From contig JACPOP010000015.1 of the NCBI GenBank assembly GCA_016191465.1, forward strand, positions 1-64,000: a DNA stretch of 64,000 nt. Reading direction: 5' to 3'. Below the pieces are notes generated by a model. It ran no database searches and was not told the DNA's origin. It saw nothing but the letters and a program-made list of their open reading frames with translations. The DNA comes from Chloroflexota bacterium. Lineage in GTDB: Bacteria > Chloroflexota > UBA6077 > CF-72. Of the stretch, positions 10,581 through 52,083 are shown piece after piece (the first letter of the stretch is position 1; every line of letters begins with the position of its first letter). Position numbers and translations under genes: made by a program.

Positions 10581-14177
<3,597 letters not shown>

Positions 14178-14180
14178 AGC

Positions 14181-14280
14181 GAGTTATCAGTTGTCAGTTT
14201 TCAGTTGTCGGGAGACGAGAGTTCCCGGACTACTTGAAACTTGGAGCTCGTCTGACAACTGAACACTGACAACTCGTCTC
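14181..14280. repeat. Heptamer-repeat palindrome between rpoB and rpoC
   Basis: The left arm (14181-14219) is a tandem of AGTTNTC heptamers ending in GGGAGACGAG. The right arm (about 14248-14276) reads CTCGTCTGACAACTGAACAC and continues with GACAACTC, the reverse complement of the left apart from a few bases. A heptamer pair of the AGTTTCA type lies in the loop. It fills nearly all of the rpoB-rpoC gap and should fold into a long hairpin in the message. Confidence 0.85.
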
Positions 14281-20113: not shown

Positions 20114-20114
20114 C

Positions 20115-20217
20115 GAGTTGTCAGTGCTCAGTTACCCGTTGTCAGTGGGACGCCATACCCGCGCCGTGCTCACGTCCCCTGGCAACTTTGAACTGACAAC
20201 TCTGAACCGACAACGCT
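20115..20217. repeat. Heptamer-repeat palindrome between rpsG and fusA
   Basis: The left arm has GAGTTGTCAGTGCTCAGTT, then GTTGTCAGTGGGACG. The right arm has CACGTCCCCTGGCAACTTTG followed by AACTGACAACTC, AACCGACAACG and CTGAACTG. The GGGACG/CGTCCC core and flanking heptamers match the element between rpoB and rpoC, although the core differs by one base. It fills the gap between the rpsG stop and the fusA start. Confidence 0.75.
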
Positions 20218-20237
20218 GAACTGTGAACTTACCGCTC

Positions 20238-23589: not shown

Positions 23590-23898
23590 ATGGCAAAACA
23601 GCGCATTCGCATTCGACTGAAGGCGTTCGACCACAAGATCCTGGACCAATCTGCTCAGCAGATTGTGGAAACGGCCGAGCGGACGGGGGCGGTCGTCGCC
23701 GGCCCCGTTCCTCTGCCGACCAGGATCGAAAAGTTCACGGTGATCCGCAGTCCGTTCATCGACAAGGATTCGCGGGAGCAGTTCGAGATGCGAACGCACA
23801 AGCGGCTCATTGACGTGCTTGAACCCACGTCGAAAACCGTGGACGCGCTGATGCGCCTGAACGTCCCCGCGGGCGTGGACATCGAAATCAAGCTGTAA
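23590..23898 (+). CDS. rpsJ: 30S ribosomal protein S10
   Basis: S10 (102 residues) is a small-subunit head protein and, in E. coli, the NusE antitermination factor. It reads [20 protein letters not shown], with [34 protein letters not shown] and a closing [12 protein letters not shown], all family-typical. It is the first gene of the S10 ribosomal operon, set closely after tuf, and is separated from rplC by a long heptamer palindrome. Confidence 0.97.
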
Positions 23899-23899
23899 A

Positions 23900-24016
23900 C
23901 GAGTTGCAAGTTGCAAGTTCCAAGGAGACGGGCGACGTGCCTTTCGGCTGCGGCCACAGGATGACACCCGTGCTCGTCTCCACTTGAAACTTTGAACTTG
24001 CAACTTGGAACTCGGA
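23900..24016. repeat. Heptamer-repeat palindrome between rpsJ and rplC
   Basis: The left arm starts GAGTTGCAAGTTGCAAGTTC and continues into CAAGGAGACGGGCGACG. The right arm reads GCTCGTCTCCACTTGAAAC, then TTTGAACTTGCAACTTGGAACTC, broken by a few mismatches from the left. Here the heptamer is AGTTGCA/AGTTCCA rather than AGTTGTC, but the GGAGACG/CGTCTCC core is the same as at rpoB-rpoC. It occupies almost the whole gap. Confidence 0.85.
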
Positions 24017-24027
24017 AACAGGTAACC

Positions 24028-24666
24028 ATGATCCAAGGCATTCTTGGTCGGAAACTCGGTATGACCCGTGTCTTCGACGAAAACGGCGTTGTTACTGCCA
24101 CCACGCTGGTGGAGGCGGGACCTTGCTTCATCACGCAGTTGAAAACGTTGGAGCGTGACGGTTACACGGCCGCGCAGTTGGGCTTCGACGAAAAGAAGCG
24201 GCCGAACAGCCCGGAGCGCGGCGCTCTGAAGGCGGCGGGCCTCGACACCAAGAAGGGTCTCCGGTTTCACCGAGAGGTACCCGTCGACACGACCGATGAC
24301 CTGGAGCTTGGCTCTCGCGTGGACGCCGCGATCTTCGTCCGCGGCGAGGTGGTCGACGTGGTCGGCACATCCAAAGGGCGCGGCTTCGCGGGTGTGGTGA
24401 AGCGACATAACTTTAGTGGTGGTCCCAAGACCCACGGACAGTCAGACCGGTGGCGGCGTGGCGGCTCCATCGGCTCGGGCACGACCCCAGGGCGCGTGTG
24501 GAAGAACATGCGCATGCCGGGCCAGATGGGCAACGAGCGCGTCACCGTACGCAACCTGCGCGTGCTGCAGGTGGACCCCGAGCGCAACATCGTGGCGCTG
24601 CGCGGTGCCATTCCCGGCCCGAACGGCGGTCTCGTCATGATCCGCAAGATTCGCCAGGACGACTAG
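24028..24666 (+). CDS. rplC: 50S ribosomal protein L3
   Basis: L3 nucleates large-subunit assembly. The 212-residue product starts MIQGILGRKLGMTRVFDENG and has the central extension GTSKGRGFAGVVKRHNFSGG with HGQSDRWRRGGSIGSGTTPG, plus MPGQMGNERVTVRNL. ATG at 24028 follows GGTAACC at the end of the palindrome; the frame is open upstream only through repeat sequence. It is separated by 16 bases from rplD. Confidence 0.96.
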   Translation: MIQGILGRKLGMTRVFDENGVVTATTLVEAGPCFITQLKTLERDGYTAAQLGFDEKKRPNSPERGALKAAGLDTKKGLRFHREVPVDTTDDLELGSRVDAAIFVRGEVVDVVGTSKGRGFAGVVKRHNFSGGPKTHGQSDRWRRGGSIGSGTTPGRVWKNMRMPGQMGNERVTVRNLRVLQVDPERNIVALRGAIPGPNGGLVMIRKIRQDD

Positions 24667-36038: not shown

Positions 36039-36152
36039 ATGAAGGTCCGAGCATCCGTAAAACCACGCTGTGAGCGCTGCAAGGTGATCCGCCGCAATGG
36101 CGCGGTCATGGTCATTTGCTCGAACCCGAAGCACAAGCAGAGGCAGGGCTAG
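36039..36152 (+). CDS. rpmJ: 50S ribosomal protein L36
   Basis: L36 is 37 residues: [20 protein letters not shown] then [17 protein letters not shown]. The Cys-x2-Cys, Cys and His residues make it the zinc-binding form. In many genomes it follows infA and precedes rpsM; here infA is missing and rpsM begins ten bases later. The gene has AGAAG some way upstream but no strong Shine-Dalgarno. Confidence 0.95.
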
Positions 36153-36161
36153 GCGCACATC

Positions 36162-36545
36162 ATGGCACGTATCGCAGGCGTGGACATCCCGCGCGACAAG
36201 CAGGTGTGGGTGTCGTTGACCTACATCTACGGTATTGGACCCACGACCTCCCGCAAGATCATCGCACGCACGTCGATCAAGCCTGACCGGCGGGTGCGGG
36301 ACCTGAGTGAGGAAGAGGTCAACCGCCTCCGCGAGCTCATCGACCGGGAAGTCCGGACGGAAGGTGATCTGCGGCGCGAAGTGAACCTGAATATCAAGCG
36401 GCTGATGGAGATCGGCTGCTACCGCGGCGTGCGGCATCGGCGCGGATTGCCCGTCCACGGGCAGCGCACTCGCACCAATGCACGGACCCGAAAGGGCCCC
36501 AAGAAGACGGTTGCCGGGCGCAAGAAGGCCGCGGCGAAGAAGTAA
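36162..36545 (+). CDS. rpsM: 30S ribosomal protein S13
   Basis: S13 lies in the head and contacts the P-site tRNA. The 127 residues read [40 protein letters not shown], then the rRNA-binding [20 protein letters not shown] and [20 protein letters not shown]. Standard length and place between rpmJ and rpsK. Confidence 0.97.
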
Positions 36546-41220: not shown

Positions 41221-41288
41221 CGAGTTGTCAGTTGTCAGTTGTCAGGAGACGGACATGGACCGCTCCTGGCAACTGAAACCCTGGAGAT
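41221..41288. repeat. Heptamer-repeat palindrome between rpsI and rpsP
   Basis: The left arm is CGAGTTGTCAGTTGTCAGTT followed by GTCAGGAGACGG, three perfect AGTTGTC heptamers plus the GGAGACG core. The right arm CCGCTCCTGGCAACTGAAAC matches its reverse complement at about 14 of 17 positions. It is shorter and less symmetrical than the rpoB-rpoC copy. The rpsP Shine-Dalgarno (GGAG at 41283-41286) lies at its end. Confidence 0.75.
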
Positions 41289-50681: not shown

Positions 50682-52083
50682 GGCACGCACCGAATATCTC
50701 TGCCGTGAGTGCGGCTACCGCACCCCGCGGCCATTAGGGAGGTGCCCCACGTGCGATGCGTGGGGCACCTTTGACGCCGTCGCGGAGCAGCGCGCTACGC
50801 CCCCGGCGCGCCGGGCGGCGAACGGCGCCACGGCCGGTGGGGGCGTCCAGTTTGGCCGGCCAGGCACGGGTCCTGTGGGCCTCGATGAGATCGAGGTCTC
50901 TGGCTTCGAGCGCCTGGCGCTCCCAATGGACGAGTTCGCTCGAGTCCTCGGCGGAGGGGTGGTGCGCGGCTCGCTGGTGCTCGTCGGCGGCGACCCGGGC
51001 GTTGGCAAATCCACGCTGCTCACCCAGGTGGCGAACCTCGTAGCCGGCACGTCCGGCAGCGCCCTGTATATCTCTGGTGAGGAGTCGCTGTCTCAGGTTG
51101 GCCTTCGCGTCCGGCGCATGGGCCTCCAGGCGCGCGGCCTCCGTTTCGCCAGCGAGACCGACCTGGACACCATCCTGGGCATCATCCAGCACAGCGACGC
51201 GCGGCTGGTGGTCATCGATTCCATCCAGAGCGTCATGTCCGCCAACGTGGATTCGCTGCCGGGGAGCGTCAGCCAACTGCGTGAGTGCACGCTTCGGTTC
51301 ATGCAGCTGGCAAAGGCCACCGGCGTGGCGATCTTCCTGGTGGGCCACGTGACGAAGGAAGGCGCCATCGCCGGCCCCAAGGTGCTGGAGCACATGGTCG
51401 ACGCGGTTCTGTACCTGGAGGGCGAGCGCTTCAACGCTTTCAGGCTGCTGCGGAGCACGAAGAACCGCTTTGGCCCCACCCATGAGGTGGGCGTGTTTGA
51501 GATGCACGAGGAGGGGCTCGTGGAGGTGGACAACCCCTCGGCGCTGTTCCTCGCGGAGCGCGGCGAGGCGGCTCCCGGATCGGTGGTGACCGTGACGCTG
51601 GAAGGGACGCGGCCAATCATGGTGGAGGTGCAGGCCCTCGCCAGCAAGAGCAGCCTCGCACAGCCCAGGCGCACCGCGAATGGCTTTGATACCAACCGCC
51701 TCCACCTGGTAGCAGCGGTCATCTCCAAACGCCTGGCGGTGCCGTTGTGGGAGCAGGACCTGTACCTCAACGTCGTCGGCGGGCTGCGCATCGACGAGCC
51801 AGCGGCGGACCTGGCCGCGGCGCTGGCGATCGTGTCGAGCGCGCGCGACCGAGCTGTGCCAAATGACCTGGTTGCCTTCGGCGAGCTCGGCCTGGCGGGC
51901 GAGCTACGGAGCGTCGGCCAGGTGGAGCGGCGGCTACGCGAGGCCGGCAAGCTCGGCTTCGCGCGGGCGCTCGTTCCCGAACCCGCTGGTGCTACGGGGC
52001 GGCGCGCGTTCCCGAAGGACCTGGGAGTGGAGGTGCTGACCGTGTCCACGCTGCGTGAGGCCACCCGAGTCCTGGGGCTCTAG
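50674..52083 (+). CDS. radA: DNA repair protein RadA, apparent CTG start
   Basis: RadA/Sms is a RecA-like branch-migration helicase. The 469 residues run: zinc finger CRECGYRTPRPLGRCPTC near 10-27, Walker A LVGGDPGVGKSTLLTQVANL near 105, the RadA motif KNRFGPTHEVGVFEM near 262, and a C-terminal Lon-like domain. The frame between the in-frame stop at 50611 and the zinc finger has no ATG, GTG or TTG; the first plausible start is CTG at 50674 ([14 protein letters not shown] aligns with family M-[AS]-K-x-K-T-x-[YF]-x-C), six bases after GAGG. A GTG at 50875 would lose the zinc finger. Confidence 0.88.
   Translation: MSKARTEYLCRECGYRTPRPLGRCPTCDAWGTFDAVAEQRATPPARRAANGATAGGGVQFGRPGTGPVGLDEIEVSGFERLALPMDEFARVLGGGVVRGSLVLVGGDPGVGKSTLLTQVANLVAGTSGSALYISGEESLSQVGLRVRRMGLQARGLRFASETDLDTILGIIQHSDARLVVIDSIQSVMSANVDSLPGSVSQLRECTLRFMQLAKATGVAIFLVGHVTKEGAIAGPKVLEHMVDAVLYLEGERFNAFRLLRSTKNRFGPTHEVGVFEMHEEGLVEVDNPSALFLAERGEAAPGSVVTVTLEGTRPIMVEVQALASKSSLAQPRRTANGFDTNRLHLVAAVISKRLAVPLWEQDLYLNVVGGLRIDEPAADLAAALAIVSSARDRAVPNDLVAFGELGLAGELRSVGQVERRLREAGKLGFARALVPEPAGATGRRAFPKDLGVEVLTVSTLREATRVLGL

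Follow-up and report, generated by a model that had tools for sequence, protein, structure and literature searches.

A palindromic pair of AGTTNNN heptamer arrays between rpsJ and rplC, probably a copy of a dispersed, lineage-specific DNA repeat

The window (the whole 64,000-nt stretch that was analysed, part of a 2.15 Mb host assembly estimated to be 78% complete) holds a long palindromic element in the gap between rpsJ, identified by its S10 Pfam match, and rplC. The rpsJ stop codon TAA lies at 23896–23898 on the forward strand; the element starts 1 base past it and has the layout CG(AGTTNNN)3-AGGAGACG...CGTCTCC...(NNNAACT)4-CG, with 23900–24014 reading CGAGTTGCAAGTTGCAAGTTCCA AGGAGACG ... 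CGTCTCC ACTTGAAACTTTGAACTTGCAACTTGGAACTCG. The left arm (23900–23922, forward strand) consists of CG and the units AGTTGCA, AGTTGCA and AGTTCCA, and is followed by the left core GGAGACG (23924–23930, forward); a decayed REP-like monomer, the reverse of TGTCATCCTGAGGCCGCAGCCGAAGG, was recognised at 23940–23966 on the reverse strand by comparing cores between elements; the right core CGTCTCC occupies 23975–23981 (forward); and the right arm (23982–24014, reverse strand) is made up of one degenerate unit plus four AACT units, ends in AACTCG, and read as AGTT units from the outside in gives CCA, GCA, CAA and TCA. The remaining leader, GAAACAGGTAACC (24015–24027, forward), extends to the rplC start at 24028. 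The sequence-only reading had placed and spelled this copy, including its left-arm units, just as we find it. The core contains GAGACG/CGTCTC (within 23924–23930 and 23975–23981), which equals the recognition sequence of BsmBI-type restriction enzymes, probably by coincidence.

Together the arms make up an inverted repeat of 32 nt at 84%. Folded as RNA, the element reached −59.6 kcal/mol at a z of −5.97, and 0 of 200 shuffles were equally stable. The exact pair GGAGACG-N20-50-CGTCTCC occurred once in the window compared to 0.05 in shuffles, and AGTTNNNAGTT occurred 15 times compared to 0.33 expected; a chance origin of the element was ruled out by the shuffled and reversed controls. No intrinsic terminator (G+C hairpin followed by a T run) was predicted at the element, and Rfam covariance models gave no match at the site at E ≤ 0.5; a terminator or a known RNA family was rejected as its identity, as it matched neither. 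Elsewhere in the window, 36139–36194 weakly resembled the Rfam model of the alpha operon ribosome binding site, scoring 22.3 bits (E 0.31), which is less than the gathering score.

Three other copies were present in the window. The one between rpoB and rpoC (genes named from position and length) has AGTTNTC arms (14180–14276, forward strand) and a core of GGAGACG (14211–14217) and CTCGTCT(GA) on the right side (CTCGTCT at 14247–14253). This copy is nested: within its GTC-type outer arms lies a short inner arm of the CCA/TCA type at 14232–14253, CGAGCTCCAAGTTTCAAGT on the reverse strand, so that the AGTTTCA-like pair previously noticed in the loop is real and represents the other heptamer type. 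The rpsG-fusA copy (20114–20229, forward) has degenerate mixed arms and the core GGGACG (20147–20152)/CGTCCC (20173–20178); the rpsI-rpsP copy (41221–41251, forward) has a left arm of three AGTTGTC units, GGAGACG on the left side only, and a decayed right arm. The earlier statement that the core is kept was exact for the GGAGACG/CGTCTCC of the rpsJ-rplC copy, and is right only loosely for the window, because the cores of its copies are alike but not identical.

We searched the host assembly with the pattern AGTTNNNAGTTNNNAGTT, which gave 265 matches, and with the reversed pattern as a control, which gave 0. Detailed annotation covered 824 kb (38%) of the assembly and provided 63 arms in 38 groups, 22 of these groups being two-armed and accompanied by single arms, compared to 8 arms in the reversed sequence. 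AGTT was constant and the following NNN variable in the annotated arms; AGTTCCA (103) and AGTTGTC (50) were the commonest units, followed by those with GCA, ATC, TCA, CCG and others. On the outer side, a CG typically stands ahead of the first AGTT and marks the end of the arm (of 58 arms, 44 have C at −2 and 43 have G at −1); this outer CG, the period of 7 nt and the tetramer AGTT itself were the steadiest features across arms. The expectation that the arms evolve in concert was borne out for unit type, where arms within one element agreed at an identity of 0.249 compared to 0.161 when permuted (p 0.0044), but with three or four mixed-arm elements as exceptions (e.g., C5:72981, C1:52932 and C1:56896), and it did not extend to a mirrored order of units between arms, which was not significant (p 0.07). 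The element at C5:42926 is nested, with an arm start of AGACGAGTT within another array.

We examined if the GGAGACG core is shared by searching within 40 nt inside each of 58 arms. The exact motif was found inside 16 of the 58, compared to 0.27 expected, and was distributed over both heptamer types (10/38 for CCA, GCA and other arms; 6/20 for GTC-type arms). The sharing of the core between heptamer types is not due to chance, because of this excess and its presence in both types, and it is independent of heptamer type. Had copies with the rpsJ-rplC heptamers lacked the core elsewhere, its sharing here would have counted as chance; GCA/CCA copies with the core were found, e.g., at C5:200061 and C5:233549. 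A near match was seen in 14 further arms, and 28 of the 58 had neither an exact nor a near match. The proposal that the core is more conserved than the unit thus survives in that the core is common to the GTC and CCA/GCA types, but GGAGACG is not the invariant part of the repeat.

A palindrome, TGTCATCCTGAGGCCGCGGCCGAAGGATCC, is found in many of the larger cores, where two copies often lie head to head, and a REP-like palindrome was present in half of the two-armed cores. Read directly, the palindrome has a TGTC tag, a stem beginning with AT and, in most copies, a CCG tail; by inspection the stem has 5–6 bp in its outer part plus an inner stem, rather than 8–9 bp with a 4–5 nt loop. The single decayed copy within the rpsJ-rplC element matched the cores of C5:21347, C5:9142 and C9:116968 over 23–24 bp at 91–96%. 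At least 18 bp were shared with another element by 15 of 32 element cores, compared to 1 control match, and the cores shared by dispersed copies were longer than heptamers, at 88–100% identity (the longest spanning 83 bp at 90%, another 55 bp at 98%). At C5 ~51425–51480 of the host genome, about eight AGTGTTC units stand just before a REP-like palindrome and represent a further heptamer family.

Local slippage could have occurred independently at each site, without dispersal, the likeness of the units being due to chance or mutational bias. The sequence of the unit does vary between copies, and an excess of heptamers is general in bacteria and has been ascribed to polymerase slippage by Mrazek, as reported in PMC4679880 and PMC4692102; but the copies have AGTT in common and differ in the remainder of the unit, and both GGAGACG and longer cores recur at unrelated sites. 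This reading, already weakened, we regard as highly improbable. The near-identical cores at distant sites, the modular nesting of arms and the conserved outer CG would also suit a non-autonomous mobile element of MITE or REP type, with a transposase recognising the CGAGTT arm ends or the REP part; four of six loose REP matches lay in or adjoining heptamer elements; margins included, those elements occupy about 1% of the sequence. The genome has one Y1 transposase gene (IS200/IS605-type, 154 aa; L215 1486–1950, C12:5918 of the host), but no heptamer array or GGAGACG was found in the 3.3 kb at this sole Y1 locus, and a link of the element to this gene was not supported, since the locus lacks these ends. 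Nor was a clear target-site duplication visible by eye at 23898/24015, or an autonomous copy with these ends in the 38% of the assembly covered (genome ~78% complete), and a mobile origin of this type seems distinctly unlikely.

Position relative to genes was assessed with gene calls from a simple codon model, which are rough. Of 37 distances measured between a stop codon and the first AGTT, 24 were 2–15 nt; at C1:23506, C5:21347 and C9:116968 the element fills almost all of the space between two convergent stop codons; and the gaps between divergent genes hold few elements. Because there is little room in operon gaps, elements that insert or grow only where they spare coding sequence and ribosome-binding sites could by that alone come to lie after stop codons. 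The tight fit between convergent stop codons could also represent a selected function at 3' ends.

A function in the transcript was considered, namely that of an intercistronic RNA hairpin affecting mRNA stability or processing, or tuning expression, where the structure is selected and the sequence is free, such that heptamers differ by lineage. The stable fold, the start of elements a few nt past stop codons, and the presence of copies in ribosomal and RNA polymerase operons agree with this, as does the recurrence in several relatives of hairpin-like rpsJ-rplC gaps of unrelated sequence, with heptamer arrays in G007 and G030. Against it, copies also occur between convergent genes and beside genes outside ribosomal operons, the site has no Rfam family or intrinsic terminator, and three genomes of the same family have no rpsJ-rplC gap at all, the two genes overlapping by 4 nt without an element. 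Stem mismatches were nearly equally G-U (5) and A-C (4), so that there is, at low power, no sign of strand-specific RNA selection. We consider a functional hairpin possible, though on the whole unlikely.

The relatives were scanned for arrays with periods of 4 to 15 in 20 genomes (~324 kb around the S10 operon). Within the host, 39 of 46 intergenic tandem arrays of at least 2.9 copies had a period of 7 or 14, and the inverted array pairs numbered 17 at period 7, 9 at period 14 and 0 at the other periods from 4 to 15. The relatives had seven inverted pairs at period 7 (five of them in G003) and others at its multiple, period 14; the sole exceptions were two period-8 pairs in G003, located at L197 480–571 (rpoB-rpoC) and 11498–11617 (rplW-rplB), with the unit GTTCGCGC. 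Homologous regions of 80 named contigs from other groups, 484 kb in all, contained no inverted array pair of any period from 4 to 15. A tree of six ribosomal proteins placed the host group beside Dehalococcoidia, Caldilineaceae and another Chloroflexi genome with a support of 1.0, from a named set that lacked several candidate phyla.

The units of the relatives differed from those of the host and from one another: CGTTCCG and GAGTCAC in G003, AGTNNTC in G005, GATTTTG in G007 (where the arrays sit in the same rpsJ-rplC gap), TTACAGG/ACAGGGG in G015, and GGGTTAA in G030. Matches of the AGTT type in relatives were mostly 0–3, with 10–17 in a few genomes. Among the genomes compared, the AGTT unit is abundant only in the host, and the architecture is common to the relatives; because period 7 or 14 recurs with differing units, the length of the unit is kept while its sequence turns over. 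Two other arrangements were noted in these genomes. The 95-nt tuf-rpsJ gap of G007 (L201), one gap upstream of rpsJ-rplC, is nearly all a near-perfect hairpin (period-7 self-similarity 0.53, z ~−10.9) with the same build and an unrelated sequence; and at 910–970 of G005 (L160), CTGCCAC tandem heptamers are directly followed by AACTGAC heptamers, placing two families side by side. The finding of the same architecture in the same operons with unrelated heptamers raises the idea that, in this group of bacteria, 7-nt arrays are laid down as inverted pairs behind genes by a process of their own or one tied to replication, which fixes the length and not the sequence; we think this unlikely.

With moderate confidence, we interpret the rpsJ-rplC element as one member of a family of non-coding DNA repeats that is specific to this lineage, dispersed and prone to slippage, and that is tolerated after stop codons. 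The repeat is a long palindrome of short, inward-pointing AGTTNNN arrays closed by an inner stem of GGAGACG and CGTCTCC, and its centre may or may not hold a REP-like palindrome. Its arms may lengthen, shorten and switch unit type by 7-nt slippage, and arms of the same or of different copies may replace each other's sequence through copying or exchange at paired or shared arrays; slippage and exchange would then be the driver. DNA-level copying or growth could have brought elements into rpsJ-rplC and many other gaps, where they would be tolerated if coding sequence and ribosome-binding sites were avoided, i.e., just after stop codons, and wherever an element is transcribed a stable hairpin would form between the cistrons, presumably without a necessary function. 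Gain in this lineage fits with the 4-nt rpsJ/rplC overlap and lack of an element in the same-family genomes, where gain versus loss at single sites is judged from distant relatives, none of the same genus. That heptamers exceed other long units has been noted since 2007, with polymerase slippage as the one proposal put forward; this group of bacteria, in which inverted arrays are almost only of period 7, units turn over between relatives and arms of an element share units, offers a clean set for testing if slippage, a switch of template or conversion of one arm by the other is at work, and for asking if hairpins that separate essential genes, such as rpoB from rpoC or rpsJ from rplC, alter expression.

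Searching the literature by unit and core sequences gave nothing on this element itself. In many bacterial genomes no other long class of repeat is as abundant as that of heptanucleotides, according to the sections of PMC4679880 and PMC4692102 dealing with them, which also cite a proposal by Mrazek that slippage linked to the polymerase footprint explains the excess. Heptamer satellites, (GATAGRA)n, are scattered in the genome of Chloroflexus aurantiacus, which may belong to the same or a neighbouring phylum; these are likewise dispersed arrays derived from heptamers, but with a different unit, and inverted pairing is not among the features given in the part of PMC6749651 that describes them. 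The cyanobacterial STRR of Calothrix are tandem heptanucleotides at many sites with several units per genome, as cited in PMC4692102, whose account of STRR, where it touches on them, does not include a two-armed design with a conserved core. TAACTGA repeats occur in marine Beggiatoaceae, Cyanobacteria and Bacteroidetes (MacGregor 2015, PMC4679880), mostly as intergenic direct repeats just upstream of start codons, some in ribosomal operons, with a single inverted case (PMC4679880). One unit found here, AGTTATC, can be obtained by rotating the reverse complement of TAACTGA, but our units are mostly of the CCA and GTC types and form inverted pairs after stop codons.

The REPs tagged with CGTC or TGTC have an 8–9 bp stem that starts with AT, a 4–5 nt loop and a CCA-like tail (Di Nocera et al. 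2013, PMC3733652). The inner TGTC-ATCCT...AGGAT-CC of our elements resembles them in its TGTC tag, AT stem start, CC tail, head-to-head dimers and occasional location inside another palindrome, and differs in having a stem of 5–6 bp plus an inner stem and in forming only the centre of some elements. The Xanthomonas GGGAATC and Nostoc GGGGA(C/T)T repeats are degenerate heptamers in which some positions are fixed and others free (Rehm et al. 2015, PMC4692102), and those of Xanthomonas are the closest described case: they are mainly intergenic, near the 3' end of the 5' gene and rare between divergent genes, and include 70–75 inverted pairs capable of forming stem-loops, for which a function was not found (PMC4692102). 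Our element differs from both in its AGTTNNN unit, which has no G-tract able to form G-quadruplexes, in its distant lineage, in the GGAGACG/CGTCTCC inner stem and REP-like palindrome between the arms, and in its nested arms of mixed type. It shares with the Xanthomonas type the 7-nt units with constant and variable positions, the convergent inverted arrays, the location at gene 3' ends and the rarity between divergent genes, and it belongs to this already described kind of heptamer repeat rather than to a new kind.
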